Origin: Thermoanaerobacterales bacterium
GTDB taxonomy: Bacteria > Bacillota > Thermosediminibacteria > Thermosediminibacterales > Tepidanaerobacteraceae
Reading direction: 5' to 3'
NCBI GenBank assembly: GCA_012840135.1
Contig: DUMA01000022.1
Span: 1-64,000, forward strand
Length of the DNA: 64,000 nucleotides
The notes beneath the pieces were generated by a model. The model saw only the letters and a list, made by a program, of their open reading frames with translations, was not told where the DNA came from and searched no databases. Each line of letters opens with the position of its first letter. Within the stretch, counting starts at the first letter, position 1. Shown here piece after piece: positions 49,657 through 64,000 of this stretch. Both the position numbers and the translations under genes were made by a program.

Positions 49657-50162
49657 TGGAAATAGAAAAGTTAATGGCAATAGTTGAAGGCATCTTATTT
49701 GTATCGGGCGACCCTGTCAATATCGATGATTTATCTAAAACTTTGGAAATTCCGGAGGACGAGCTATTGTATTGTGTTCAAAAGCTGCAGGAAGAATTAT
49801 CTTCTCCCTCAAGAGGTATTATGATTTCACAAGTGGGAAGATGTTTGAGGCTTACGACAAAGCCGGATGTTTTTTCTTATGTGGAAAAAATGTTCAAACC
49901 TAAAATAAACTCACAGCTTTCAAGAGCTGCTCTGGAAACCCTGGCCATAATCCTTTTCAAACAACCTGTTACAAAAACTGAAATAGAAGCAATTAGAGGG
50001 GTGAATGTGGAGAAAGCCCTAAATAGCCTTCAAGAAAAAAAACTGATCCATGAGATTGGCCGCATGGATGCACCAGGGCGACCAATCCTCTACGGTACTA
50101 CCGATTACTGCATGGAATACTTTGGTATATCATCATTAGAAGATATTAATAATATATCATGA
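49656..50162 (+). CDS. scpB: Segregation and condensation protein B
   Basis: 168 residues, two winged-helix domains: KLMAIVEGILFVSGDPVNIDDLSKTLEI and LSRAALETLAIILFKQPVTKTEIEAIRGVNVEKALNSLQEKKLI, then GRPILYGTTDYCMEYFGI. Partner of ScpA in the SMC complex; the start overlaps the scpA stop. Confidence 0.97.
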   Translation: MEIEKLMAIVEGILFVSGDPVNIDDLSKTLEIPEDELLYCVQKLQEELSSPSRGIMISQVGRCLRLTTKPDVFSYVEKMFKPKINSQLSRAALETLAIILFKQPVTKTEIEAIRGVNVEKALNSLQEKKLIHEIGRMDAPGRPILYGTTDYCMEYFGISSLEDINNIS

Positions 50163-50214
50163 ATTTTTTGTATCATTTTCCATAAACTAAGAAAAAAAGT
50201 TAAAGGGGATTGCC

Positions 50215-50904
50215 TTGATTTACATAATACTTGCCTTGACTTTTCTTCTTTTAGTTTTATCTCAAATAAAGTTTAATTTATTTTTTCATAAAAAGGGGCC
50301 TGAGGAAAAAATAGAAATATCTATGGTCTTTTTAAGAGTGATTAAAGTAGAAATCAAAGTTCCCGAAATGAGCTTTGACATTAAGAATTTGATCCCCTTT
50401 ATGACCTTCAGGGTTAGTTTATCAAATCGCAGAATAAAAAAAGTTAGTAAAACCAAAAAGTATGTTATTTCTCCTCTGAGAAATCGCATAGACATACTTT
50501 TGTACTTTTTAAAAAGGTTTTTCATGCAAATTAAAAAATACAAAATTGCCATCAAGGTATTTTTAAAAACCATAAAAATTGACAAGTTAAGTATTAGCAT
50601 CAAATTTGGGTCTATGGACCCCGCCGCTGCTGGTATTATAGCAGGTGGAATATGGGGTTTTATATATTTTATTCTGAGTGCTGCATCATATTATTTCGAT
50701 TTTGAAGGAACATCGAGCGAAATAACGGTGTCCCCATCATTTTTAACCACAGAATCCGCTCAAATATTCGTCAAAGGAATAATTCAAGTAAGGGTTGGTC
50801 ATATTATTATTGCAGGCCTATTTTTTCTGGTAATATGGCTTCTTACACGAAAAAGTTATATTAACGCAAGGAGAGCGAAAGAATATGGATGGGCATCCAA
50901 TTGA
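50215..50904 (+). CDS. DUF2953 family membrane protein
   Basis: 229 residues: N-terminal membrane helix, a basic middle (many Lys), a Gly/Ala block (KFGSMDPAAAGIIAGGIWGFIYFI) and a C-terminal membrane helix. This matches DUF2953 proteins found directly before ytfJ/gerW in spore-formers. TTG start after AAAGGGG. It overlaps the next gene by 20 nt. Function unknown, probably sporulation-related by context. Confidence 0.8.
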   Translation: MIYIILALTFLLLVLSQIKFNLFFHKKGPEEKIEISMVFLRVIKVEIKVPEMSFDIKNLIPFMTFRVSLSNRRIKKVSKTKKYVISPLRNRIDILLYFLKRFFMQIKKYKIAIKVFLKTIKIDKLSISIKFGSMDPAAAGIIAGGIWGFIYFILSAASYYFDFEGTSSEITVSPSFLTTESAQIFVKGIIQVRVGHIIIAGLFFLVIWLLTRKSYINARRAKEYGWASN

Positions 50905-51301
50905 AAGTTTAATAAAAACTTCCATGGAAAGTATTAAAGAAATGGTAGATGTAAATACAATAGTCGGTGATGCAGTGGAAACACCGGATGGCAGTGTCAT
51001 AATACCCGTATCCAGAGTGACCTTTGGTTTTGCAGCAGGTGGAGGGGAATTTGATTCGAAAGGCTCCCGAGAAACTGATAAAGGTGGGCAGCAAAAGCTT
51101 CCTTTCGGAGGCGGCAGTGGTGCCGGTGTATCGGTTCAACCCGTCGCTTTTATGGTAGTAGGTCAAGGCCAGATAAGGCTTTTGCCAGTGACACAAAGTG
51201 CTATGATTGAGAGAATTATCGATGTAGCCCCCCAGATTCTGGACCAGTTAAGAAGTGTTTTAAAGAAAAATAACGAGCCATTTACGGTTCAGGCAAGATA
51301 G
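50885..51301 (+). CDS. ytfJ: GerW family sporulation protein (YtfJ)
   Basis: 138 residues. ESLIKTSMESIKEMVDVNTIVGDAVETPDGSVIIPVSRVTFGFAAGGGEF is the family signature; a Gly-rich loop (FGGGSGAGVSVQPVAFMVVG) and a C-terminal helix follow. In Bacillus it is a forespore protein needed for normal germination. Its start overlaps the DUF2953 gene. Confidence 0.95.
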   Translation: MDGHPIESLIKTSMESIKEMVDVNTIVGDAVETPDGSVIIPVSRVTFGFAAGGGEFDSKGSRETDKGGQQKLPFGGGSGAGVSVQPVAFMVVGQGQIRLLPVTQSAMIERIIDVAPQILDQLRSVLKKNNEPFTVQAR

Positions 51302-51382
51302 CCTGACCTTTTTTTATTGAAAAAAATGTTTTTTAAGTTTAAGATATATTTTATCAGGAATAAAACGGGAGAGGTGTGTTTA

Positions 51383-51781
51383 ATGGAACTGGAAAAAGCT
51401 ATGGAGTTAATATGGGATAATCGTAAATATACAACGACCGATCCCAAAGAGGCCATAAGTCATTTAAATGAGGAAGTAGCGGAATCTTTAAAGGCTCTAT
51501 TGCGAAATGAACAGGATAAAGCAAAAAGGGAACTGGAAGATGCTTTATCATGTCTTTTTATTGCCCTGAAGGTACTTGATATAAACCCCGACGAAGCTGT
51601 AATGCGCCAGGTTACTCAAATGAAACAAAGACATGAGAAATTAATGATATTTAAGAAAGATAAGGTTGAGATATATGTAAATGGGGTATTAAAAGGGGGC
51701 TGGTCCATCTGGAGCGATGAGGATGTAAAAGAAGCAGAAAAAATAGCTAAAGAATTCGGCTGCAATATTTGTTATGAATAA
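51383..51781 (+). CDS. MazG-like NTP pyrophosphohydrolase-type protein
   Basis: About 132 residues. The first 85 form a MazG-like helical domain with metal-binding pattern HLNEEVAESLKALL...AKRELEDALSCLFIALKV (EExxE and ExxD). The last 45 (KDKVEIYVNGVLKGGWSIWSDEDVKEAEKIAKEFGC) are an extension I do not recognise. Likely hydrolyses non-canonical nucleotides. ATG at 51383 after GAGAGGTG. Confidence 0.75.
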   Translation: MELEKAMELIWDNRKYTTTDPKEAISHLNEEVAESLKALLRNEQDKAKRELEDALSCLFIALKVLDINPDEAVMRQVTQMKQRHEKLMIFKKDKVEIYVNGVLKGGWSIWSDEDVKEAEKIAKEFGCNICYE

Positions 51782-51791
51782 ATAATATTGG

Positions 51792-51861
51792 TAATCCCTC
51801 CAGCTATTATTCGAATGAATTTATATTATTAACCAAAAAATAACCTTAGCTGGAGGGATTA
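51792..51861. repeat. Perfect 14-bp inverted repeat over the dacB leader
   Basis: TAATCCCTCCAGCT (51792-51805) and AGCTGGAGGGATTA (51848-51861) are exact inverse copies, 42 nt apart. The right arm contains GGAGGG, the ribosome site for the ATG at 51867. A TAATATT (51783-51789), an exact sigma-E -35, lies 2 nt before the left arm, but no good -10 follows. Confidence 0.92.
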
Positions 51862-51866
51862 AATAT

Positions 51867-53006
51867 ATGTTAAGGAAAACTTTAATATTATTATTTATTT
51901 TTATTATAGCGTGTTCAAGTTCTGTCAAGGCGGATACGCTTTATGTCAATGCCCGGGCATATATATTAATGGAACCAATTACCTGCCGAATTTTAATCGA
52001 GAAAAATTCTGAAGTAAAAATGCCTATGGCAAGTACCACTAAAATAATGACTGCAATAATTGCGCTGGAAAAGGGTAATCTGGAGTCGAAGGTTAAAGTG
52101 AGTGCAAAAGCTGCTTCTATAGGAGGTTCATCCTTTTACCTAAAAGCAGGAGAAACCATGTCTCTGGAAAACATGCTGTACGGTCTTCTTCTGCCATCCG
52201 GAAATGATGCCGCTGTGGCAATAGCAGAACACATTAGCGGCAATGAAAAAAATTTTGTAGATTTGATGAATTTAAAAGCATTGGAAATAGGGGCACTGAA
52301 CACACATTTCATGAATCCTCACGGTCTTGATGAGCCCGGGCATTACACTACAGCTCGTGATTTGGCAATGATTGCCCGGTATGCATGGAGTATCCCAAAA
52401 TTCAGGGAAATAGTTCAAACCAGGGAAAAAGTCATAAATGATGGCATTCATGAAAGACATATCTATAATACAAACAGGCTTTTGGGGAGTAAAATCGGAG
52501 TCAATGGTATCAAGACAGGCTATACAGGTGGAGCCGGAAAATGCCTTGTGGCTTCGGCAGCAATGAACAGATTTCAATTGATATCTGTGGTCCTGGGAAG
52601 CGGGGACCATTTCGGAAATTCATACAATCTACTAGATTATGGATTTTCTCATTACAAATATAAACAGGTAGTCGTAAAAGACAGACCTTACACGAATGTG
52701 CTGGTAGAAAACGGGATCCTCGACAGAGCACTGCTGGTAGCAGGTGGAGATATTTTTCTTCCTGTCGGAGAAAATGAAACTGTGGACTTGAAGATGATTG
52801 TCCCGGACAGTATAAAGGCACCGGTAATGAAAAATCAGCCGATAGGTGAAATCTTAGTTTTTATTAACGGAAAGCAGGTATGTAAAACTATATTGGTATC
52901 CACTCAAGATATACGCGAAAAAACGTATTTTGATATGTTATATAGAATCCTAAGAGAATGGTTGAATTTGAATATAGATACAGGATATTTAAAAAATGGT
53001 ATTTGA
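51867..53006 (+). CDS. dacB: D-alanyl-D-alanine carboxypeptidase (DacB type)
   Basis: 379 residues, S11 family and a paralogue of the gene at 37627. N-terminal signal (ILLFIFIIACSSS, possibly a lipobox), SxxK at Ser56-Lys59 (MASTTKIM), SGN in LPSGNDAAVAIAEH, KTG in GIKTGYTGG, then a PBP5_C-like domain and an amphipathic C-terminal helix. Probably acts in spore cortex synthesis, by analogy to dacB and its neighbours gerW/DUF2953. Confidence 0.9.
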   Translation: MLRKTLILLFIFIIACSSSVKADTLYVNARAYILMEPITCRILIEKNSEVKMPMASTTKIMTAIIALEKGNLESKVKVSAKAASIGGSSFYLKAGETMSLENMLYGLLLPSGNDAAVAIAEHISGNEKNFVDLMNLKALEIGALNTHFMNPHGLDEPGHYTTARDLAMIARYAWSIPKFREIVQTREKVINDGIHERHIYNTNRLLGSKIGVNGIKTGYTGGAGKCLVASAAMNRFQLISVVLGSGDHFGNSYNLLDYGFSHYKYKQVVVKDRPYTNVLVENGILDRALLVAGGDIFLPVGENETVDLKMIVPDSIKAPVMKNQPIGEILVFINGKQVCKTILVSTQDIREKTYFDMLYRILREWLNLNIDTGYLKNGI

Positions 53007-53082
53007 GGGAAAAAAACAAAAAAATTTTTGTTCATTAGAAGGATTTTCAATAAAAATGTAGAATACTTATTATATAGAATAG

Positions 53083-53097
53083 CTCATCATTGATGAG
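53083..53097. promoter_or_regulatory. Palindrome CTCATC-att-GATGAG, candidate operator
   Basis: Perfect 6-bp dyad with a 3-nt centre, 11 nt before the ATG of the first cluster gene and overlapping its GAGGAGG site. The same arms occur at 59449-59463 before the mutase genes. Confidence 0.5.
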
Positions 53098-53107
53098 GAG
53101 GTATATA

Positions 53108-53530
53108 ATGCCGGATCCATACAAAACGGGAATGTTTAAGACAAATCCTTATGCCAAAAAGAAACCTTTAAAAGGTAATCTGGTAGTGGTTCTGGATGGA
53201 AAATATGAAGAACGCGGATTGAAGCTTATTGTTCAGCCTTCCCGGTGTCTTTTAAAAAATGAAGTCCATGAAATGATAATAACCGACGAAATAAAAAGCC
53301 CTGGGGATGTAGTAAACAGAATTGCCTATCTTGGCTTTTTTGTTGTGAAGGAAAGCACCGTCATTGTCATCGGGGACGAGGTAAAAGTTGCCGGGAAAGT
53401 AGTTGGAAAGATAGCAGGTTTTGATGAAACTCATATGCCTAATCATTACAATATAGTGATATACAGCGATGAGCGCATATCAGGAAATGAAAGAAACCTG
53501 GAACTGGATGATGAGGTAGAAATCGGATAA
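53108..53530 (+). CDS. Conserved-looking protein of unknown function (first gene of the catabolic cluster)
   Basis: About 140 residues, soluble, rich in beta-strand pattern: KGNLVVVLDGKYEERGLKLIVQPSRCLL, ESTVIVIGDEVKVAGKVVGKIAGFDETHMPNHYNIVIYSD. No signal peptide or membrane helix. I do not recognise the family. The ATG at 53108 follows GAGGAGG; the CTCATC-N3-GATGAG palindrome overlaps that site. It stands 68 nt before the RidA gene and in the same direction, so it is probably part of the cluster. Confidence 0.7.
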   Translation: MPDPYKTGMFKTNPYAKKKPLKGNLVVVLDGKYEERGLKLIVQPSRCLLKNEVHEMIITDEIKSPGDVVNRIAYLGFFVVKESTVIVIGDEVKVAGKVVGKIAGFDETHMPNHYNIVIYSDERISGNERNLELDDEVEIG

Positions 53531-53597
53531 AAAGAATAAAAAAGTTTATTATGAAAAAAATAGATTTAGAAATACCCTTTGAAGGGAGGTGTATATA

Positions 53598-54056
53598 ATG
53601 TCATTCGAAAAAAAGCTTCAGGAGTTAGGCATCACATTGCCTGAGCCACCAAAACCCGTTGCAGCATATGTTCCCGGAGTAAAGGTGGACAAGTATATCT
53701 ATACTGCAGGCCAGATTCCCTTCGTAAATGGTGAATTGAAGTATAAAGGGAAAGCTGGTAAAGATGTTACGGTTGAAGACGCTTATGAAGCAGCCAGAAT
53801 TTGTGCATTAAACTGTCTGAGCATCGTTAAATCTCTGGCCGGAAGTCTTGACAACGTTGAAAAAATTGTCAAAGTTGTAGGATTTGTAAACAGTGCCGAT
53901 GGTTTCAATCAACAACCAAAAGTCATTAATGGTGCTTCAGAACTATTAGGTCAGATTTTTGGCGATGCGGGTGCCCATGCACGTTCTGCAGTAGGTGTAA
54001 GCGAGCTGCCTATGGATGCTACGTGCGAGGTTGAGCTAATAGTAAAACTAAAATAG
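53598..54056 (+). CDS. RidA/YjgF family enamine/imine deaminase
   Basis: About 152 residues. Blocks: KYIYTAGQIPFVNGELKYKGKAG, DAYEAARICALNCLSIVKSLAG and ARSAVGVSELPMDATCEVELIV with the conserved substrate-binding Arg and Glu. RidA proteins hydrolyse reactive enamine/imine products of PLP enzymes, and a PLP enzyme gene follows 19 nt later. This long RidA variant (usual length about 128) has an N-terminal extension KLQELGITLPEPPKP, common in the YjgF-like LACTB2/TdcF side group. Confidence 0.93.
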   Translation: MSFEKKLQELGITLPEPPKPVAAYVPGVKVDKYIYTAGQIPFVNGELKYKGKAGKDVTVEDAYEAARICALNCLSIVKSLAGSLDNVEKIVKVVGFVNSADGFNQQPKVINGASELLGQIFGDAGAHARSAVGVSELPMDATCEVELIVKLK

Positions 54057-54075
54057 TAGGGAGGAGTTTTGTAAA

Positions 54076-55542
54076 ATGGCCAAGTTCACAAAGAAATTTG
54101 AAATGTACAGGTTTTTACAGGCCAACATACCTAATATTTATGCTGAAGCCAGGAAGGCTGCCGATGAAATAGGAATTCCGGCTGAGCTTAGAGGAAAGTT
54201 TGGTTTAACCGGAGCTATATCCGGATGTCCTTCTCCTCTTACAAAAAAAGTAAGAGAAGCACTGGACAAGGGAAGCACTGAGGTTATTCCTCTGGCAAAA
54301 CTGGTAGATGAGATTCGGACAATTGTAAAAGATGTTTACGGCGATGAATATGATGTAGCTCCTGTAAACACCTGTGAAGCAGGATTATGGGTGACTTTTG
54401 ACGCTCTGTTTACACCGCCCATGCAGGGCAGAGGTGACAGCTATCAAGCCCGCTATATTATACCTTATGAAAAACATCTGCATCATCATGGAGGGTACGG
54501 CAGACCCTTCCCGGGACGGTTCAAAGACATACTTGCCGACAGAGGTTCAACACCTGGAGAATTAGGTTTCTACGGCAAGAGACAGAATAATACCAGTGTT
54601 TATATTGTTCCTCTTGTGGGAGCGGATTACTCGGTCCATGGAATCAAATACCATCCTGTAATTCAATTGACTAAAGTTGATCCCGAAGCTTCTTCTAAAA
54701 AAATAAAGACTGTAGCCGAGAGACATGCATCCATGTTGACCGGTATCACTTCACTTGGATATGATACACCGGGCTATGGCTATGGTGTAAAGGATACTGA
54801 CGGAACACCGGTGTTACAGAAGAGACTGGCTGAAATTGCCCATGATTTTGATATACCCTATGTGATTGATAATGCCTGGGGCGTTCCTTTTATAGGTCAT
54901 GACATCAGAAAGAGCGGCGCTGATGTAATTATTTACAGTCTGGATAAAGCCAGCGAGTCGACAACTGCCGGTTTGATTATAGGTAAAGAAGAATTCATGG
55001 TACCCATAAGAAGAGCTCTGGGTATGCATGGTGACAGGTACGGAACTACAGCTTCATATGGAAAAGCAGCTTATGTTACCAACGATCCAGGTAAAGAAGC
55101 TCTCCTTGGTGTAATTGCAGCCCTTAAGGAATTGAGGGACAATCCCGAGGAATTGACAAAACCCGTTGATGACATGTATACCATCGTAAAAGAAGAGTTT
55201 GACCAGATCCATCCAAAGATTAAGAAAGGTTTAATCATCACAAAATCCTATAATTCCAGAGCCATTGAGGTTAATTATGAAAACACATGGAACGGCAATG
55301 AACTGGGTCTGCCAATATTCTCCATTGAAGATATGTATGCTGGAACCAACCTCTTCCAGAATGGCATGAATCCGATGGGTGTAATTCCTACTGTTGCTTA
55401 TGACGGAAACATAATGATATCACCTGGCCTTGGAACAACCGATGAAAATGGTCAAATAATAGAAAAGAATTTCAGATATGCTGTTAAAGCTCTGGTCAAA
55501 TTAATGGAAATTGTTGCCAAGTACAGTGGTTTCATAGATTAA
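54076..55542 (+). CDS. Uncharacterised fold-type I PLP-dependent enzyme
   Basis: 488 residues. VIDNAWGVPF (Asp265, expected to contact the PLP ring nitrogen) and YSLDKASESTTAGLIIG (Lys291, expected Schiff-base Lys) give the aspartate-aminotransferase-fold pattern. NTCEAGLWVTFDAL near residue 100 would be the phosphate-side helix. A His-rich loop HLHHHGG lies near 135. It looks like neither OrtB (fold type II) nor a standard decarboxylase. Lyase, racemase and aminotransferase activities are all possible. GGGAGG precedes the ATG. RidA next door suggests an enamine or imine product. Confidence 0.75.
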   Translation: MAKFTKKFEMYRFLQANIPNIYAEARKAADEIGIPAELRGKFGLTGAISGCPSPLTKKVREALDKGSTEVIPLAKLVDEIRTIVKDVYGDEYDVAPVNTCEAGLWVTFDALFTPPMQGRGDSYQARYIIPYEKHLHHHGGYGRPFPGRFKDILADRGSTPGELGFYGKRQNNTSVYIVPLVGADYSVHGIKYHPVIQLTKVDPEASSKKIKTVAERHASMLTGITSLGYDTPGYGYGVKDTDGTPVLQKRLAEIAHDFDIPYVIDNAWGVPFIGHDIRKSGADVIIYSLDKASESTTAGLIIGKEEFMVPIRRALGMHGDRYGTTASYGKAAYVTNDPGKEALLGVIAALKELRDNPEELTKPVDDMYTIVKEEFDQIHPKIKKGLIITKSYNSRAIEVNYENTWNGNELGLPIFSIEDMYAGTNLFQNGMNPMGVIPTVAYDGNIMISPGLGTTDENGQIIEKNFRYAVKALVKLMEIVAKYSGFID

Positions 55543-55552
55543 ACAGCTTAAC

Positions 55553-55580
55553 GCCAAAGGGTTTTCCCTTTGGCATTTTC
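55553..55580 (+). terminator. Stem-loop after the PLP enzyme gene
   Basis: GCCAAAGGG-tttt-CCCTTTGGC is a perfect 9-bp stem with only ATTTTCC behind it. Probably a weak terminator or attenuator, as the next gene starts 23 nt on. Confidence 0.65.
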
Positions 55581-55602
55581 CAAAAAAAGGAGGACAGAAA
55601 AG

Positions 55603-56886
55603 ATGCCCAAGGTAGTTGTAATTGGTGGTGGATGGTCGGGTTGCGCTGCGGCACTTTCTGCAAAGAAAGCTGGCGCCGATGTAGTTTTGCTTGAAAGAGC
55701 GGATATGCTGCTGGGAACCGGCCTGGTAGGCGGTATCATGAGAAATAATGGAAGATTTACCGCTACTGAAGAAATGATTGCTATGGGTGGCGGAGAATTA
55801 TTCCAGGTAACGGATAATGTTGCACGCCATAAAAACATCGAATTTCCGGGCCATAAGCATGCAACATTATACGATGTGGCAAGGGTTGAACCGGCTGTAA
55901 AAAAGGTTTTACTGGATGCAGGTATAGAAATTCATACCGAAAGCAGAGTAAAAGATGTTGAAGCCGAGGGTAAAAAGATTAAAGCGGTTATTACCGATAA
56001 CGATGAAAGATTTGAAGGCGACGTCTTTGTAGAATGTACAGGGACAGCAGGTCCTCAGGGCAATTGCACTAAATACGGAAACGGATGTGCCATGTGCATC
56101 ATAAGATGCCCAAGTTACGGTCCGAGAATAAGTGTTGCCGGTAAAATGGGAGTAAAAGAAATGATGGCAAAGAAGGCCGATGGCACTTACGGAGCCATGA
56201 GTGGATCCTGCAAGCTTCACAAGGATTCTCTTTCCAAGGATATAGTTGATAAATTAAATTCTACCGGTGTGGCTGTAATTCCCGTCCCTGAAGAGGTAAG
56301 GGAGGGAGCCGATATTTTAAATAAAAAAGCATGCCAACAATATGCCTTGAAGGAATTTATCGAAAATGTGGTACTTTTGGATACAGGCCATGCTAAATTG
56401 ATGACGCCATTTTTCCCTCTAGAAAACCTAAGGAGAATTCCAGGGTTTGAAAATGCCAGATATGAAGATCCATATGCCGGAAATCGAGGTAATTCTATGA
56501 GGTATCTGGCCATTTCTCCAAGAGACAATTTCTTAAAGACCGAAGGTGTAGATAATCTCTTCTGCGGCGGTGAAAAAGCCGGCCCGCTAGTAGGCCATAC
56601 CGAAGCAATATGTACCGGGACATTGGCAGGCGCCAATGCTGTCAGATTTGCAGCCGGCAAAGAACTGGTACAAATACCAACCGAACTTGCCGTAGGAGAT
56701 GCTATCGCTTATGTAAAAGAACAGATGAAGACAGAGGAAGGCATTTCAAAGAAATACACCTTTTCAGGTTCGGTATACTTTGAGAGAATGAAACAACTTG
56801 GTCTTTACACAACGGATGTAGATGCCATAAAACAACGGGTAGAAAAAGCTGGTATGACAAACTTCTTTAACCAGAAAATAGTATAA
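55603..56886 (+). CDS. FAD-dependent oxidoreductase with Cys motif
   Basis: About 427 residues. Rossmann motif VVVIGGGWSGCAAALSAKKAGADVVLLE at the N terminus; C-terminal FAD block NLFCGGEKAGPLVGHTEAICTGTLAGANA resembles the TrmFO/MnmG/thiazole-synthase side of the family. Unusual: C155-x6-C162-x2-C165-x3-C169 (GNCTKYGNGCAMCIIRCP), which could hold an iron-sulfur cluster. ATG at 55603 after AAGGAGGACA. Likely oxidises an intermediate of the local pathway or links it to ferredoxin; substrate unknown. Confidence 0.78.
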   Translation: MPKVVVIGGGWSGCAAALSAKKAGADVVLLERADMLLGTGLVGGIMRNNGRFTATEEMIAMGGGELFQVTDNVARHKNIEFPGHKHATLYDVARVEPAVKKVLLDAGIEIHTESRVKDVEAEGKKIKAVITDNDERFEGDVFVECTGTAGPQGNCTKYGNGCAMCIIRCPSYGPRISVAGKMGVKEMMAKKADGTYGAMSGSCKLHKDSLSKDIVDKLNSTGVAVIPVPEEVREGADILNKKACQQYALKEFIENVVLLDTGHAKLMTPFFPLENLRRIPGFENARYEDPYAGNRGNSMRYLAISPRDNFLKTEGVDNLFCGGEKAGPLVGHTEAICTGTLAGANAVRFAAGKELVQIPTELAVGDAIAYVKEQMKTEEGISKKYTFSGSVYFERMKQLGLYTTDVDAIKQRVEKAGMTNFFNQKIV

Positions 56887-56910
56887 AACTTATAGCGAAA
56901 GAACAAAATA

Positions 56911-56946
56911 AAAATAAGGGGTCATTATATGGCCCCTTATTTTTAT
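56911..56946 (+). terminator. Terminator between oxidoreductase and transporter
   Basis: AAAATAAGGGGTC and GGCCCCTTATTTT pair over about 11 bp around ATTATAT, with trailing T residues. Confidence 0.75.
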
Positions 56947-56975
56947 TAATATTTATTTTTGGGGGGAATAAAACA

Positions 56976-58361
56976 ATGGTTCATCTTACTACTATACACT
57001 GGGTATATTTTGGAATGGTCATCGTAATTATTACGACTATGGCTATGAGAAGAGATACAGTCCTACCATGCACAATTGGAATATTGCTCGTAGGTTTTGT
57101 ATCAACAGGAAATGTATGGAAATCAGTGCAGGTGCTTTTTAATGCTTTGATTGCCGCCGGCACCGAGTTCCTCGGTTTGATAACTGTAATAGGCCTGGTT
57201 GTAGCCATGTCAAAAGCCATGGGCGATGTGGGCAGCGATTATCTAATAATGAGGCCTGCGGCCAGGATCATGGTCAACGCAGATATTGCGTTCTGGGTGC
57301 TCGGTTTTGTAATGCTGATTGTGACTCTTTTTATCTGGCCATCTCCGGCTGTAGCTTTGATTGGCGCAATTATGCTCCCTATTGCAGTCAGGGCAGGACT
57401 TTCGGTGATGGGAGCTGCCGTAGCTATGAACATATTCGGTCATGGCGTTGGATTATCAGGTGATTATGTAATTCAAGGAGCTCCTGCCATTACTGCAAAA
57501 GCCGCTGGATTTGCAACTGCTACACCTGTAATGAGCGCAAGTTTTCCATTATGGCTTACAATGGGTATAGTGACAACCGTGTTATCTTATATATTTGTAA
57601 AAAAAGATATAAATCGAAATAAGAGTGAAAATGATGTCCAAAGACTTGCATATGAAAAAGCCGATGAGAAGCGAAAAAATATTAAATTTTCATCTGTATC
57701 ATATTTAGGAGCCGCTTTATTTATAATTCTATTTTTGTTTGACATCTTTTTGCTCATAAAATTTAAATTAAGAGGCGGGGATGCGACAGCCCTTATAGGT
57801 GGAACAGCCCTCGTTATAACTTCAATTATTTCTTTGCTGGGATTTGGGGCGGATTCCCTGGAAAAAATTACCGATTATGTCCGGGAAGGTTTCTTGTTCG
57901 GAATGAAAGTTTTTGCACCGGTAATAGTGATAGGAGGATTTTTCTTCCTCGGGTCCGAATCCACTGCAAAAGCAATATTAGGCCCACAAGCAACAGGCCT
58001 TTTATCGGATCTTGGTATTGCGTTATCCCAGGCTGTTCCTTTAAGTAAAGTTCCTGTAGCTTTTATCCAGATGATAATAGGTGGTATTACAGGATTAGAC
58101 GGTTCGGGGTTTTCAGGTCTTCCGCTGGTAGGATCCCTGGCTCAGACCTTCAGCACCGCTATTAATGTAGATAAAGCTACACTTGGAGCTCTGGGGCAAA
58201 TTGCAGCTGTATGGGTCGGAGGCGGCACCATTATCCCGTGGGGCATTATCCCGGTGGCTGCTATAGCCGGGGTTGATCCCAATGATCTCGCAAGAAAAAA
58301 TTTTATCCCCGTCATAGTTGGATTGATCGTAACTACTATTGTGGCAATCTTTATCCTTTAA
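56976..58361 (+). CDS. Polytopic transporter, ion-transporter-superfamily-like
   Basis: 461 residues, about eleven or twelve membrane helices and a central cytoplasmic loop (KKDINRNKSENDVQRLAYEKADEKRKNIK, about 205-235). Two Gly-rich re-entrant-like stretches (MNIFGHGVGLSGDYVIQGAPAIT and IIGGITGLDGSGFSGLPLVGSLA) in the two halves recall GntP/CitMHS-type secondary carriers. I cannot name a family or substrate. GGGGGG precedes the ATG. By position it probably imports the cluster's substrate. Confidence 0.7.
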   Translation: MVHLTTIHWVYFGMVIVIITTMAMRRDTVLPCTIGILLVGFVSTGNVWKSVQVLFNALIAAGTEFLGLITVIGLVVAMSKAMGDVGSDYLIMRPAARIMVNADIAFWVLGFVMLIVTLFIWPSPAVALIGAIMLPIAVRAGLSVMGAAVAMNIFGHGVGLSGDYVIQGAPAITAKAAGFATATPVMSASFPLWLTMGIVTTVLSYIFVKKDINRNKSENDVQRLAYEKADEKRKNIKFSSVSYLGAALFIILFLFDIFLLIKFKLRGGDATALIGGTALVITSIISLLGFGADSLEKITDYVREGFLFGMKVFAPVIVIGGFFFLGSESTAKAILGPQATGLLSDLGIALSQAVPLSKVPVAFIQMIIGGITGLDGSGFSGLPLVGSLAQTFSTAINVDKATLGALGQIAAVWVGGGTIIPWGIIPVAAIAGVDPNDLARKNFIPVIVGLIVTTIVAIFIL

Positions 58362-58385
58362 AAAAGAATAAATATAATTAAAAGG

Positions 58386-58463
58386 AAATAGTCACGCAAC
58401 TTTTCCGCAAAGAATATTTTTAGATGTTCTCTTTACATGAAAAGTTTGCTGTGACTATTTTTT
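58386..58463 (+). terminator. Long-stem terminator after the transporter
   Basis: AAATAGTCACGCAACTTTTC (58386-58405) pairs with GAAAAGTTTGCTGTGACTATTT (58439-58460) over about 20 bp with two single-base bulges, followed by TTTTTT. Confidence 0.85.
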
Positions 58464-58500
58464 GTTGTTGAAATAAAGAGCTTATAAATCAGTGATAGGC

Positions 58501-58514
58501 TTACTGGACAGTAA
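58501..58514. promoter_or_regulatory. Perfect palindrome TTACTG-GA-CAGTAA upstream of the regulator
   Basis: A 14-bp dyad 105 nt before the regulator ATG, enclosed by a wider inverted repeat AAGAGCTT (58476-58483) / AAGCTCTT (58526-58533). A TATAAT lies at 58569-58574. It could be an autoregulatory site; the arms differ from the CTCATC palindrome. Confidence 0.35.
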
Positions 58515-58618
58515 AAATTAAAATGAAGCTCTTGTAAAAAAAATATTTTTTTTATATTAAAAGTAATGTATAATAAAATATATAGTTCAGTAAAAATATA
58601 GGCAATCGGGGGGAGAAA

Positions 58619-59371
58619 ATGTTACTGGAAAAGCAGCATTTATTCTACATGATTTTAAAAACAATTGCAAACTCACATGTACCTGTAGGATCTGGCTATA
58701 TACGCGATAGTTTAAAGATGCAGGGACTTGATATAAGCGAAGCAACGGCAGGCCGTATTCTCAGGGAACTTGATATTAAGGGCTATACAGAAAAAGTCGG
58801 ATTTAAGGGAAGATATTTGACGGCTTCAGGTTATAAAAAAATGAAGGAGCTGGAACAGGAACATCGAATAAACCATTATGGAAATGAACTGGTGAATGCT
58901 ATAAAAGTTACAGGAAAACAGGAATTGCTGGATATTTTAACGGCCCGAAAAGCAATAGAGAGCCAGCTGGCAAAACTTGCAGCACAGTTTATTACCCCGG
59001 AAGAGATCCATAAAATGGAAGAAATTATTCAGAATCAACAGGAACATGTAGATAAGGGTATATCGATAGCAGACGATGATATAAAATTTCACAAAGCCAT
59101 AGCTCAGGCAGCAAAAAACAGAGTACTGGATGCTGCCATGGATTTGATAAGACAGCACGGACAAATTTCTCCAATTCTGGAATATATAAGAAAAGAGGTA
59201 AAAAGCACTGTACTTCTTGACCATAAAAACATTTTTCAGGCCATTGTATCAAAAGATACAGAAATGGCAGAAAAAGCCATGATACGTCATATAGAAAATC
59301 TGGCAAATGATGTTAAAAAATACTGGGAAATAGTATACAATAATGAAGAAAACTTTAATGGGGACAATTGA
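58619..59371 (+). CDS. Transcriptional regulator, winged helix plus FCD domain
   Basis: 250 residues. Residues 1-80 form a winged helix (VPVGSGYIRDSLKMQGLDISEATAGRILRELDIKGYTEKVGFKGRYLT) that looks more like the NrpR/RNase-R-type HTH than the GntR HTH. Residues 95-235 are an FCD ligand domain: LTARKAIESQLAKLAA, DDDIKFHKAIAQAAKN and LDHKNIFQAIVSKDTEMAEKAMIRHIENL with the expected metal-binding Asp and His residues. FCD regulators sense carboxylates or amino-acid-related ligands. It stands alone between two terminators or gaps in the cluster and probably controls it. Confidence 0.85.
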   Translation: MLLEKQHLFYMILKTIANSHVPVGSGYIRDSLKMQGLDISEATAGRILRELDIKGYTEKVGFKGRYLTASGYKKMKELEQEHRINHYGNELVNAIKVTGKQELLDILTARKAIESQLAKLAAQFITPEEIHKMEEIIQNQQEHVDKGISIADDDIKFHKAIAQAAKNRVLDAAMDLIRQHGQISPILEYIRKEVKSTVLLDHKNIFQAIVSKDTEMAEKAMIRHIENLANDVKKYWEIVYNNEENFNGDN

Positions 59372-59448
59372 ATATTTGCTTTTATTTTGTTAAAATAAGA
59401 ATCGAAGGTTTCGGCTTGGTTAAGCTAATTTTATTTTACCTATTTCTC

Positions 59449-59463
59449 CTCATCTATGATGAG
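59449..59463. promoter_or_regulatory. Palindrome CTCATC-tat-GATGAG, second candidate operator copy
   Basis: Same dyad arms as at 53083-53097, here 17 nt before the ATG of the small mutase-domain gene and 2 nt before its AAAGGAGG site. Confidence 0.5.
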
Positions 59464-59479
59464 CAAAGGAGGCAGTAAA

Positions 59480-59707
59480 ATGTCCGCTGTAATGGAGAAG
59501 GTAATGGATGCTGTGGACCTGGAGACTTTTCTTGTATGTAAAGATGAAGAAGAGGGAAAAAAACTCTCTCTTCAATTAATGGAGGATTTAGGTTTTAAGG
59601 ATGTCAGTATAGTGTTTATCCAGCATCAGGGTCCCGGTGCTAGAGTAAGGTTGAGAGGTTATGTCTATAAACCCGGTGACCGCTATGGATGGTTAAAAAA
59701 AGAGTAA
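59480..59707 (+). CDS. Small protein resembling the dimerisation domain of OraE/KamE aminomutases
   Basis: 75 residues from the ATG at 59480 (AAAGGAGG upstream). The stretch DEEEGKKLSLQLMEDLG, then KDVSIVFIQHQGPGARVRLRGYVY, parallels the small alpha/beta dimerisation domain that precedes the B12 domain in OraE and KamE (there ...FAAIEFAKKMNLEEVEV...GTRIELKGRV, from memory). Here it is a separate polypeptide, 16 nt before the mutase gene. It may be a structural subunit. The alignment is by eye, so the homology is inferred. Confidence 0.6.
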   Translation: MSAVMEKVMDAVDLETFLVCKDEEEGKKLSLQLMEDLGFKDVSIVFIQHQGPGARVRLRGYVYKPGDRYGWLKKE

Positions 59708-59723
59708 AATGGAGGGGAAATAT

Positions 59724-61541
59724 ATGCCTGTTCAAAAAAAGAAGGTGCTGCTGGCTCCTCTTGATCCGGTGCATGATATCGGTTTGAAAATGATAAAAAG
59801 AGGCCTGGAACAGGCAGGGCATGAAACATTGCTTTTGCCACCGGATTATTCTCATGAGGAGATAATCAAGGCCATTATAGACAACAAAGCTGACGTGGTT
59901 TTGGTCAGCAGGACTCTTGGATATGGCGTAGCGGAGATTTTAGGGAAGTTTATCGACCTGGCTGAAGCTGCAGGCATAAGGGATAAGGTAAAAATTGGTA
60001 TCGGAGGCATGGCCATACGACCGGAGCTTGCTGCAGAACTCGGATTTGATGCTGGGTTTGGTCCTGGCACTACAGTGCAAGAAGCTCTTGCTTTTGTGGA
60101 AGGCCGTGAATATATTCCCGATGAAGTAAAGGGCAAAAAAATAAAAAAAGATATCACTGAAGGATATGACTATACCTTTAAGAACAAGTCCATAGAAAAA
60201 CTCCTTGACAGTATAGTTGACGGAATACTGGATTATGTAAGCGATAAAACCACTGCCGCCGTACAAAGGGCTGAACTGAGAAAAAAAATACTGGAATCGC
60301 AGAATGAATCCGAAAAGCAAAGTTTACGGATGGAGTACAGCAAACTGTGCGATGAAACCGTCAGAGCTTTTTATGATTCCGGCAAATACAGAGAAAAAAC
60401 GAGACCTCTATCCGAGGCGGAATTGACATCTCTGAATAATTACGTGCTGGAAGTTAATTCCAGAATGAATCCTTTGAAGCTGCAACACACAGAAGAAAAT
60501 CCTGTAGTATTTATTCAATACGGTACGGGATGCCCCTTCATGGATATAGCCCATATAAAATCATGTGAAGCATGGGGAGCCGATGGCGTTGTCCATTTTG
60601 ACCCATCCTGGGGGGCCAGGACGGAAGGATTTTTTGAAGGTTATATAACACACGAAGAAGATGGTTCGGTCATAACATATGAAAACCTGAAAGGAATTAA
60701 AGATTCTTTAAGCCCCTCTACACTATGGCAGGTCAGAGCCCACAGGGGTCTTAACACTCCGGAAACGGTATTGCTGGCAGGCAAGATAGGAGCAGATCTT
60801 ACAAAGATAAATATCGCCTACGGTTCTCTTGGAGGTGGCACTGATCCCGAAAGACTAACCGTGGATGCGGTCAGAGCTATCAAATATGCTGCTGAATACA
60901 ATATGCCTTTTGATGTAGTGACAAATGAAGAACTATGCGGTGTACCGGCATTTAAGGCTTTCGCAGGCATGCTAATAGTTTCAAAACTCGGGTTAAGACT
61001 TGGTGGCAGACCGATTTTGCAGCCTCTATTTTGCTATTCACCTGAAGTAATGGTAAGTGGTCAGATGGAAGACAATTATGTGGATTTCAACGCGGCAAAG
61101 ATTATGTGCCTCAGAAACATCGTAAATGCTCCCATATGGTGCGGTGCACCTATAGGTTTTTTGACGCAAACCGAAGACAGGGTGCAATCTTCCTTAATGA
61201 CAGCTCTGCATGCGTCACTCGCTTCTTCTCTTGGAGTTGATGCTATCTCTATAGCTTCGGCTGATGAAGCCTTTTCGGGAGGGCCAATTTCGGTTCCTGC
61301 AAGAATAGACACATTGAGGGCAACTCAATCGGCTTTTAGGTTTTTTGGCAAATCCGATATAGTTCCGACAAAATTTGCGGAAACTTGGGCCAGAGAAATC
61401 GAAAGTGGCATAGAAACAGTACTTGAATCTGTTGCAAAAAACGGCAACTTTGTGGATGCCCTGTATAAAGGCTTGCTGGGCAGCAGAGAAGAAGGAGCAT
61501 ATCCGGGAAGGGCCGGAAGTGGTACGGTAATAAAAAAATAA
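59724..61541 (+). CDS. Cobalamin-dependent mutase, OraE/KamD-like barrel with N-terminal B12 domain
   Basis: 605 residues from the ATG at 59724 (GGAGGGG 6 nt upstream). Residues 6-128 form a B12-binding domain: LDPVHDIGLK (His17 as the cobalt ligand), ADVVLVSRTLG and IGIGGMAIRPELAAELGFDAGFGPGT, very close to the OraE B12 domain. Residues 250-560 resemble the OraE barrel (EAWGADGVVHFDPSWGARTEGFFEG; SVPARIDTLRATQSAF), as does the end (NFVDALYKGLL...GSGTVIKK). In OraE the B12 domain is C-terminal. The PLP-binding Lys, 11 residues after the cobalt His in OraE and KamE, is not at that position here. Confidence 0.8.
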   Translation: MPVQKKKVLLAPLDPVHDIGLKMIKRGLEQAGHETLLLPPDYSHEEIIKAIIDNKADVVLVSRTLGYGVAEILGKFIDLAEAAGIRDKVKIGIGGMAIRPELAAELGFDAGFGPGTTVQEALAFVEGREYIPDEVKGKKIKKDITEGYDYTFKNKSIEKLLDSIVDGILDYVSDKTTAAVQRAELRKKILESQNESEKQSLRMEYSKLCDETVRAFYDSGKYREKTRPLSEAELTSLNNYVLEVNSRMNPLKLQHTEENPVVFIQYGTGCPFMDIAHIKSCEAWGADGVVHFDPSWGARTEGFFEGYITHEEDGSVITYENLKGIKDSLSPSTLWQVRAHRGLNTPETVLLAGKIGADLTKINIAYGSLGGGTDPERLTVDAVRAIKYAAEYNMPFDVVTNEELCGVPAFKAFAGMLIVSKLGLRLGGRPILQPLFCYSPEVMVSGQMEDNYVDFNAAKIMCLRNIVNAPIWCGAPIGFLTQTEDRVQSSLMTALHASLASSLGVDAISIASADEAFSGGPISVPARIDTLRATQSAFRFFGKSDIVPTKFAETWAREIESGIETVLESVAKNGNFVDALYKGLLGSREEGAYPGRAGSGTVIKK

Positions 61542-61557
61542 CTTTTGGAGGACCAAC

Positions 61558-62631
61558 ATGGCTTTTATAATAGGGGCAGCAGGAACTGCAAAAAATACCG
61601 GTAAAACCACAACTACTTCAGCCATTTTAGATGAGTTATATAGGGAAAACATTTTAATAGGTTTAACCAGCATAGGCTATGACGGTGAGGAAGTTGACAA
61701 TATTACCGGTTTGCCCAAACCGCGTCTTTTTTTAAAAAAAGGGTCAATTGTTGCAACAGCAGAAAAATGTCTTGCTGCCGGTAGTGCTGAATATAAGATA
61801 ATGGAATCAACGGATATTGTAACACCTCTGGGCAAGATAATGATTGTTAAAATTACTGAAGATGGGTTAGTAGTTATAGCAGGTCCCAATAAGAGCAGCG
61901 AACTGAGATGCATTTTAAATATGATGACTCAAAACTGGAAATGCGAGTTTATTATGGTAGACGGGGCTTTAAACCGAATAGCTCCCATGGTGGAAACCGA
62001 TGGTATAATTCTTGCAACAGGTGCTGCGAGAAATACCGATATCGATGAACTGGTTAGTGAAACCTGGGCTTACTGTGAATTATTCAACTTACCGGAAGTA
62101 AGCGCAGAAGAAAAAAATATAATTCATGAACAAACCAAAATTTGCCTGATTAAGCATGATGATATTATAAAAACCCTTGATTATGGCTCATTAATAGATA
62201 AAAAAAGCGTTGACAGTATTAAAGAACATATAAAAAAAATAACCACTATATATATCCCGGCGCTGCTTTCGGAAAACATGTTAAGAGAATTAAATCAAAC
62301 AATAGGCAGTCTGTGGGATGGTAAAATACTCATAGTAAGAGATCCCATAAAAATTGCAGCTGGCGGTAACCCCCAGAATGTAATATGTGAAATAAGTACT
62401 TTATTAAATTCAGGCGGCAAAATTAAGGTGTTTAAAAAGATGCCAATTTTAGCCATTAGCGTCAATCCTTTTTATCCACTTTATAGATATGAGAATAATA
62501 ACTACGAAGCAGGTTTTGTAGATGCAGATGAACTTTTTTCAAAGATGAAAAAAGCAGTCCCAGTACCGGTAGTGGATGTAAAAAGGCAAGGGGTAAATGT
62601 GTTGATATCATTGATAAAGACGCATTTTTAG
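61558..62631 (+). CDS. P-loop protein, candidate mutase reactivase or chaperone
   Basis: 357 residues. N-terminal Walker A GAAGTAKNTGKTTTTSAIL and a following IGLTSIGYDGEEVD block; GPNKSSELRCIL and FIMVDGALNRIAPMVETDGIILATGAA suggest a Walker B/switch arrangement like MobB or dethiobiotin-synthetase-type NTPases. Cobalamin aminomutases need ATP-dependent reactivases (for lysine 5,6-aminomutase, KamB/KamC; for others, EutA or DdrAB). A P-loop gene 16 nt after the mutase fits such a role. The link to KamB is only a suggestion from memory. Confidence 0.6.
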   Translation: MAFIIGAAGTAKNTGKTTTTSAILDELYRENILIGLTSIGYDGEEVDNITGLPKPRLFLKKGSIVATAEKCLAAGSAEYKIMESTDIVTPLGKIMIVKITEDGLVVIAGPNKSSELRCILNMMTQNWKCEFIMVDGALNRIAPMVETDGIILATGAARNTDIDELVSETWAYCELFNLPEVSAEEKNIIHEQTKICLIKHDDIIKTLDYGSLIDKKSVDSIKEHIKKITTIYIPALLSENMLRELNQTIGSLWDGKILIVRDPIKIAAGGNPQNVICEISTLLNSGGKIKVFKKMPILAISVNPFYPLYRYENNNYEAGFVDADELFSKMKKAVPVPVVDVKRQGVNVLISLIKTHF

Positions 62632-62647
62632 TAAAGAGGTGTCCTTT

Positions 62648-63328
62648 ATGGAAACGTTGGCTATAGTCGGAACAGGGAGGATGGGTTCTCTGCTGGCCAG
62701 AAAACTGTCAGGAAAATATAAACTAATACTTATTGATAAAGATATACGGCAGTGCGGACAGCTGGCCCGTGAGTTAGGAGTGGAAGGTATCATAGAATAC
62801 TCTATTCTTGCCAAAACTGATTTTATTATCTTAGCCTTACCCGCTTCAATTATCCCAGAGGCAATAAATGAAATAAAACCTTTTTTAAAACAGGAACATG
62901 TTTTAATAAATGTTTCCACAGACACCGGTTTAGAGGAATTTAATACTGTAAAGAACTTCTGCAAGCCTGTTTCAGCAAAAATTATCGGCCATGCACTTCA
63001 GATAGGGTTTGGGGAGCTCCCGCTAATAATAATAGATGGAGAAGATGAAAGAGCCCGCAATAAGACTGCTGAGATCTTCAGCAATATAGGGGCGGTCAAA
63101 TTCGGCTCTGAAAAAATTGTTGCGGATATTAATCATATTGCAAGTGAAGAAGGTATTAAGGCGGCATATAACATTCAAAATAAACTAAAGCAGATCGGTA
63201 TACCGGAAGAATATATCAGTTTTGCCATAAGGAACGTAGCGTGCGGTACCATGAACGCGTATTCTATAGGAGATGCAGGGCCTTTTGCACGGGAAATAAT
63301 AAAGAAGTTAAATCAAAAAAATGACTGA
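62648..63328 (+). CDS. Small NAD(P)-binding dehydrogenase-like protein
   Basis: 226 residues. N-terminal Rossmann motif LAIVGTGRMGSLLARKLSGKYKLILIDKD (GxGxxG with acidic D after strand 2, favouring NAD), LALPASIIPEAINEI, IGHALQIGFGELPLIIIDG and a helical C terminus. It resembles the prephenate-dehydrogenase / pyrroline-5-carboxylate-reductase side of the 6-phosphogluconate-dehydrogenase-like superfamily but is short. It is shorter than 2,4-diaminopentanoate dehydrogenase of the ornithine pathway as I recall it. Probably acts on the mutase product. Followed by a terminator. Confidence 0.7.
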   Translation: METLAIVGTGRMGSLLARKLSGKYKLILIDKDIRQCGQLARELGVEGIIEYSILAKTDFIILALPASIIPEAINEIKPFLKQEHVLINVSTDTGLEEFNTVKNFCKPVSAKIIGHALQIGFGELPLIIIDGEDERARNKTAEIFSNIGAVKFGSEKIVADINHIASEEGIKAAYNIQNKLKQIGIPEEYISFAIRNVACGTMNAYSIGDAGPFAREIIKKLNQKND

Positions 63329-63351
63329 TTCCGCTCTGGAATCAGTTTTTT
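63324..63351 (+). terminator. Terminator closing the mutase operon
   Basis: ACTGATTCC (63324-63332) pairs exactly with GGAATCAGT (63338-63346), followed by TTTTTT. Confidence 0.93.
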
Positions 63352-63432
63352 ATTCACCTATTTTTTCACCTATTTTACCTCTTTTGAATAGATTATTAAT
63401 GAACTTTATCTTTTTCAAAAGGGGTGAATGAA

Positions 63433-64000
63433 ATGGCTTTAAATTATTATTGTATAGATGCTGGTTCTCAGTACTGTCCGTGCCATCTGGCAAAGACTGA
63501 AAATTGTCTTATTTGCTCGATGATGCAGGGGAAAGAAATTTGCGACTGCAGATGGCAGGGAATTTGCGTATATCAAGAGTATATGTGGGCAGATGGTAAA
63601 ATAGAAGAAAGAAAAACAATACCGGCTTCTGTTGTCGAAAAGAATTTTTTAACAGACAAACTTGTTATCATTAAGATCTTTATCCCATTGGATTCTCTTG
63701 TCAGAGAATTAAATCAACCTGGAACTTTTGTCTTTTTAAGGTCCGAAGGTTCTCCAGAATACTATGATGTCCCGTTATGCGTTATGGATATAGATGAGTC
63801 AAATAAAATTTTGAGTTTTGCAGTAAATATAGTTGGTCCCAAGACAAAAGCCATAATCATGTCGGATAGCATGGTTTTAATGCGTGGTCCATACTGGAAT
63901 GGTCTTTTAGGTTTAAAACATATTAAGTCGAGCTACAGCAAACACTGGCTTATAATAGGAAGGGGAATAGGTCAGGCCTCCATAATCTCTGTGGTAAAGA
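63433..64000 (+). CDS. FAD/NAD-binding oxidoreductase-like protein with Cys-rich N terminus (partial)
   Basis: Open to the window edge, 189 codons visible. The ATG at 63433 follows AGGGGTG. The first 45 residues are cysteine-rich (QYCPCHLAKTENCLICS...ICDCRWQGIC), a likely iron-sulfur or zinc site. Then a flavodoxin-reductase-like beta barrel (PGTFVFLRS) and the start of a nucleotide-binding domain (WLIIGRGIGQASI). It resembles the sulfide/dihydroorotate-dehydrogenase-like FAD/NAD-binding proteins of spore-formers. It is separated from the mutase operon by a terminator. Confidence 0.65.
   Translation, partial: MALNYYCIDAGSQYCPCHLAKTENCLICSMMQGKEICDCRWQGICVYQEYMWADGKIEERKTIPASVVEKNFLTDKLVIIKIFIPLDSLVRELNQPGTFVFLRSEGSPEYYDVPLCVMDIDESNKILSFAVNIVGPKTKAIIMSDSMVLMRGPYWNGLLGLKHIKSSYSKHWLIIGRGIGQASIISVVK

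Follow-up and report, generated by a model that had tools for sequence, protein, structure and literature searches.

A predicted relative of lysine 5,6-aminomutase without the PLP lysine of the B12 domain is a candidate PLP-free mutase

Introduction

The locus studied here raises the question of whether a protein related to the B12- and PLP-dependent aminomutases can do without the lysine by which the B12 domain holds PLP. To our knowledge, such a joint use of B12 and PLP occurs in two enzymes, lysine 5,6-aminomutase (KamD/KamE) and ornithine 4,5-aminomutase (OraE/OraS). The domain-motion model for both enzymes centres on the Lys-PLP bond that the B12 domain contributes (PMC4256349). His133 of KamE and His618 of OraE are the cobalt ligands, and Lys144 and Lys629 form the imine with PLP (PMC3958899). 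The first-pass annotation of this DNA had quoted these residue numbers, and they agree with that paper. A widely conserved relative that has neither the Lys-PLP bond nor the PLP cup would put to the test how necessary PLP and a parked B12 domain are. It may also reveal the ancestral state that gave rise to the combination of B12 and PLP.

The window is a stretch of 64,000 nucleotides of contig DUMA01000022.1 from a Thermoanaerobacterales bacterium (GCA_012840135.1). All features described below lie on its forward (+) strand.

Results

The large subunit (59724..61541) has 605 aa, and Pfam, hhalign, Foldseek and an AlphaFold model place an N-terminal B12 domain before a KamD-like TIM barrel. The start codon ATG 59724 has a Shine-Dalgarno sequence (GGAGGGG) just upstream, and this Shine-Dalgarno is itself preceded by another in-frame ATG (59709). 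The B12-binding Rossmann domain (residues 6-127, 59739..60104) passes the gathering score of Pfam PF02310 (E 7e-18, 65 bits, cut-off 32.1). Its nearest relatives by hhalign are KamE (E 2e-23) and OraE (E 7e-15). The cobalt-ligand His is invariant in the homologue alignment and corresponds to His17 (codon 59772-59774), or to residue 22 if counted from ATG 59709. It is directly followed by HDIGLKMIKRGLEQAG; the residues next after His17 in the large subunit are DIGLKMIKRGLEQAG. His17 and the short loop without a PLP lysine (HDIGLKMIKRGLE) occupy 59772..59810.

The first-pass annotation had seen lysines at +5 and +8 after His17 and none at +11, and had suspected that the PLP lysine was missing. 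The sequence reads as it stated, and the alignment with OraE and KamE that it had proposed was run and bears out the suspicion for the whole family. Homologues were gathered by whole-genome searches and from named genomes, which gave 98 distinct sequences. The residue at +11 from the cobalt His is Leu in 96 of these, Met in 1 and Val in 1. Lys was found there in 0/98 homologues, compared with 16/16 of the KamE and 3/3 of the OraE sequences. The absence of Lys +11 is a family-wide invariant and not chance. The insert is absent as well: the aligned loop after the cobalt His lacks 4 residues relative to OraE, as had been estimated earlier, and approximately 9 relative to KamE. Its length is the same as in the domains of methylmalonyl-CoA mutase (MCM) and corrinoid protein, in a comparison whose outgroups were MCM and one corrinoid protein only. 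This resemblance to MCM had also been noticed earlier.

The lysine at +5 (K22) is kept in 98/98 distinct homologues and is found in MCM domains too (HDRGAK), while +8, K25 here, varies among the 98 homologues (K 40, R 35, A 12, others). The B12 loop length and Lys +5 are the likenesses to the C-terminal domain of MCM, which is attached to another barrel. The cobalt motif at 59763-59783 reads D-P-V-H-D-x-G, with Asp at -3 and Pro at -2, in 38/38 aligned homologues. In all 38, the Asp is one position further upstream than in the canonical DxHxxG, which is intact in MCM. A change in cobalamin binding is conceivable from this altered motif.

Between the B12 domain and the barrel is a helical region (residues 155-250, 60186..60473), which is defined by hhalign and by helices in the model and shares the KTT..v.RA.lR motif with KamD. 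The AlphaFold model of the large subunit (pLDDT 86.2, pTM 0.79) has eight main strands. They form a predicted barrel at residues 255-550 (60486..61373), with strands at 261-266, 288-291, 334-337, 359-361, 396-399, 430-433, 471-474 and 507-510. Except for the B12 domain, Pfam detected nothing above cut-off in the large subunit, and PF09043 gave no match. The NCBIfam models Lys_5_6_beta (55.4 vs 280 bits) and ornith_mutase_E (44.5 vs 800) were both below cut-off. Another genome gave a weak PF09043 match, a 607-aa ORF, which proved to be a chemotaxis receptor-like protein and was rejected as a false positive.

More sensitive comparison placed the barrel nearest to KamD. The family profile matched KamD with an hhalign E of 1.3e-6 (probability 90.7), colinear over 403 columns that cover the barrel and its N-terminal helices, compared with E 0.005 for OraE and 0.05 for glutamate mutase. 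In the Foldseek ranking of PDB structures, lysine 5,6-aminomutase came first (1xrs with E 1e-16, 8t0v, 9q1a), followed by OraE and then glutamate mutase. KamD and OraE match each other with E 8e-31 and are far closer mutually than either is to the new family. By profile and predicted fold, the new family is a distant relative of the KamD barrel, outside both KamD and OraE. The first-pass annotation had left two options: either the enzyme binds PLP in another way, or it is a PLP-independent mutase built on an aminomutase barrel. These results support such a barrel.

The PLP contacts of this barrel were then compared. In KamD, R184, G187, Q188, S189 and R268 contact the phosphate, S238 the pyridine nitrogen, Y236 and Y263 the ring, and N299 the phenolic oxygen (PMC3958899). 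All nine are invariant in a joint alignment of KamD and OraE, save G187 (G or A). In the new family 8/9 are gone, and the stacking Tyr366 (60819..60821), which equals KamD Tyr263 and OraE Tyr187, is the only one kept. The invariant Asp293 (60600..60602) takes the place of KamD Arg184, and the G187-Q188-S189 loop after it is deleted. At the end of strand 3, R338-A339-H340-R341 (60735..60746) has A339 for KamD Tyr236 and R341 for Ser238. The position of KamD R268 is G371 (Gly or Ala in the family), and N299 has no aligned partner in an alignment that is weak beyond strand 4. When the segment of strands 1-4 was realigned alone, the same alignment was obtained (E 7e-5); the later strands are not reliably aligned. 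Where KamD has a phosphate-binding Arg the family has Asp, and the glycine loop is lost; these two changes argue most strongly against PLP being bound as in the known enzymes. Besides the lysine, the PLP cup also appears to be absent.

The residues that are invariant near the strand ends are D293, R299, R338, H340, R341, K361, Y366, E402/E403 and E515. Lys361 (60804..60806) is the final residue of strand 4, at the position of KamD Leu258 and OraE His182. No other invariant lysine of the barrel lies at the end of a strand in the AlphaFold model, in which K411 and K459 are within helices. Lys361 is thus the one residue that comes into serious consideration as a relocated PLP anchor. In a motif-level alignment only, Glu515 (61266..61268) in the DEAFSGGP motif probably corresponds to Glu338, the OraE residue facing the adenosyl ribose (PMC4413051).

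The small subunit (59480..59707) has 75 aa, or 83 aa if started from 59456, and was assigned by hhalign and Pfam as a putative split-off dimerisation domain. Its profile, built from 90 homologues, matched the N-terminal domain of KamE (hhalign E 4e-7), and the match to Pfam OAM_dimer was below cut-off (E 0.022). The domain order here is dimer / B12-barrel, compared with barrel / dimer-B12 in KamDE and barrel-dimer-B12 in OraE. The three kinds of domain that make up KamDE and OraE (barrel, dimer domain and B12 domain) are thus all represented here, in a rearranged order.

In the tree of B12 domains, the new family formed a clade (99/97) apart from KamE and OraE, with MCM outside. The outgroups were MCM and one corrinoid protein; branches were long and the corrinoid protein fell near KamE, so the deep part of this tree is uncertain.

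The two subunits belong to a conserved gene set. Upstream are DUF6917 (53090..53530, PF21891 E 1.6e-49), a conserved neighbour; a RidA-family enamine/imine deaminase (53589..54056, PF14588 and PF01042); a fold-type I PLP enzyme encoded as a separate gene (54076..55542); an FAD-dependent oxidoreductase (55570..56886, PF01134/PF12831); a membrane transporter without a Pfam match that is also a conserved neighbour (56976..58361); and an HTH_12/FCD transcriptional regulator recognised by a domain match (58619..59371). A KamB-type P-loop reactivase (61558..62631, NF052386 254.9 bits, cut-off 210) follows the large subunit. The PLP enzyme (approximately 488 aa) has no Pfam family above cut-off, carries invariant D265-N-A-W-G and D290-K291 motifs and is linked to the mutase in most loci. 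It is SelA/SepCysS-like by fold and weakly DgaE-like by sequence. Full-length homologues of the large subunit were present in 39/399 sampled genomes of the phylum. The conserved set was found in Tepidanaerobacter relatives, Sporomusa, Desulfosporosinus, Heliobacterium and others, mostly Bacillota, and was partly present in Treponema and Candidatus Adiutrix. Cultured carriers include Sporomusa malonica, S. acidovorans and a Tepidanaerobacter. The RidA, PLP lyase-like and FAD genes were in the operon at most loci.

In the genome of the window, PF09043 gave no match to KamD or OraE, and a search with the large subunit recovered no other KamE/OraE-like B12 domain. Because KamD and OraE were not found in this genome, the neighbour's curated annotation as a lysine 5,6-aminomutase reactivase is probably too specific. 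No match to Rfam was obtained in positions 50000-64000.

Discussion

Compared with KamD/KamE, the new protein has the closest B12 domain, an alignable barrel, a dimer domain and a KamB-type reactivase. In contrast to KamD/KamE, it has no PLP lysine and only one of the nine PLP contacts, its barrel is below PF09043 detection, and the B12 domain is fused before the barrel with the dimer domain encoded apart. With D-ornithine 4,5-aminomutase OraE/OraS (PDB 3kow-3kp1), it shares the B12 domain, the barrel fold and the probable ribose-facing Glu, whereas OraE carries Lys629 on a chain that joins all three domains. Judged from its sequence, the large subunit fails the defining features of a B12/PLP aminomutase and should not be filed as one.

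At a probability of roughly 60%, we believe that the large subunit belongs to the barrel lineage of lysine 5,6- and ornithine 4,5-aminomutase and acts as an AdoCbl-dependent mutase without using PLP. AdoCbl would sit on the B12 domain with His17 as the cobalt ligand, as its motif suggests. The open end of the barrel would bind the substrate directly, and D293, R299, R338, H340, R341 and K361 at the ends of strands 2-4 may hold it there. Glu515 would aid Co-C cleavage as Glu338 does in OraE, if the motif is read correctly. The 5'-deoxyadenosyl radical would then abstract a substrate hydrogen and a 1,2-shift would follow. In such a mechanism, unlike that of OraE, no Lys-PLP bond would be needed to park the B12 domain at the edge of the barrel. 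By homology, the 75-aa protein would serve as the dimerisation domain, and the KamB-type protein would exchange the damaged cofactor. In the known aminomutases the radical is stabilised by PLP, and a PLP-free amino shift would call for another mechanism. Of the two options left by the first-pass annotation, the PLP-independent one is favoured by the loss of 8/9 contacts, and differently bound PLP is kept alive by K361.

A PLP-free carbon-skeleton mutase resembling glutamate mutase (GlmS/GlmE), a PLP-free class I AdoCbl mutase, would be a special form of the PLP-free mutase and overlaps with it; we consider this narrower assignment unlikely. GlmE holds its substrate with Arg149 and Glu171, and R338 and K361 would be in their places. 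By eye, QVR338...TK361 (23 apart) can be set against QVR149...TDYE171 of GlmE (22 apart), DEA..GGP resembles HEALGVP of GlmE, and glutamate mutase is among the Foldseek matches. However, hhalign to GlmE was not significant for the whole (E 0.05) or for parts (E 0.07-0.17), and counterparts of GlmE Arg66 and Arg100 were not seen. TIGR01503 (GlmE) had no match in the genome. Membership in the glutamate mutase family was therefore rejected, as neither TIGR01503 nor hhalign gives it profile support.

Slightly less likely again is a B12/PLP aminomutase that still uses PLP, with the Schiff-base lysine moved into the barrel as K361 at the end of strand 4. The phosphate would be held by R341/R377 together with the Gly-rich loop of strand 4, and Tyr366 would stack on the ring. 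The kept stacking Tyr and an invariant lysine five residues before it make a rebuilt PLP site possible. Other invariant arginines and the Gly-rich loop (YGSLGGGTDPER) could bind a phosphate. K361 stands alone as an invariant lysine at a strand end, Tyr366 equals KamD Tyr263, and the position of K361 is that of OraE His182, which touches the substrate (PMC3958899). However, this OraE residue touches the ornithine carboxylate and not the C4' carbon of PLP. The counterparts of R184, G187-S189, R268, S238 and Y236 are all lost, and the MCM-like loop length suggests an ancestral PLP-free state. An ordinary lysine or ornithine aminomutase with its PLP lysine elsewhere in the B12 domain (K22 or K25) is highly improbable, because the invariant K22 has its equivalent in PLP-free methylmalonyl-CoA mutases, K25 is not conserved, the PLP site of the barrel is gone, and no recognisable lysine or ornithine fermentation genes recur in the conserved operon; Lys +5 and +8 were accordingly rejected as replacement anchors.

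The outgroups have neither the insert nor the lysine. A single gain in the KamE/OraE line would therefore explain the data, with no loss in the new family. Since KamD and OraE are close to each other and the B12 domains lie on separate branches, the PLP machinery need never have existed in the new family. Tentatively, and with somewhat less than even confidence, we propose a third branch of the aminomutase barrel, which would carry out a B12 radical shift of an amino or other group on an amino acid without PLP and would descend from a state that preceded the recruitment of PLP in the KamDE/OraSE line. In the less likely form of this proposal, the enzyme would be B12/PLP-dependent, with its PLP anchored on the barrel.

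The operon points to an apparently undescribed catabolic pathway, and nothing on this enzyme family, DUF6917 or such a gene cluster was found in the open-access literature. Judged from the gene content, the operon would serve the catabolism of an amino acid or amine, with the SelA-like PLP enzyme, RidA and the FAD oxidoreductase acting on the product of the PLP-free mutase. The SelA/SepCysS-like fold and the weak likeness to DgaE suggest a beta-elimination that would give an enamine for RidA. At two Paenibacillus loci, DUF6917 and the small and large subunits stand beside alternative downstream enzymes, an ornithine-cyclodeaminase/SbnB-family dehydrogenase and a methionine-gamma-lyase-like (Cys/Met PLP) enzyme. 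Amino-acid chemistry in both operon types points to an amino-acid substrate. Around the core cluster, the genes of the neighbourhoods compared have mostly housekeeping functions and give no clue to the substrate.

Beyond the operon (63424-63999 and on) lies a Cys-rich FAD/NAD-binding electron-transfer protein that is PRK05802-like. A second copy of the FAD oxidoreductase, 59% identical, also lies beyond the operon (L113:1-1710). Three genomes carry two separate copies of the mutase, at L076 and L077 (G062), L081 and L111 (G103), and L086 and L087 (G319).
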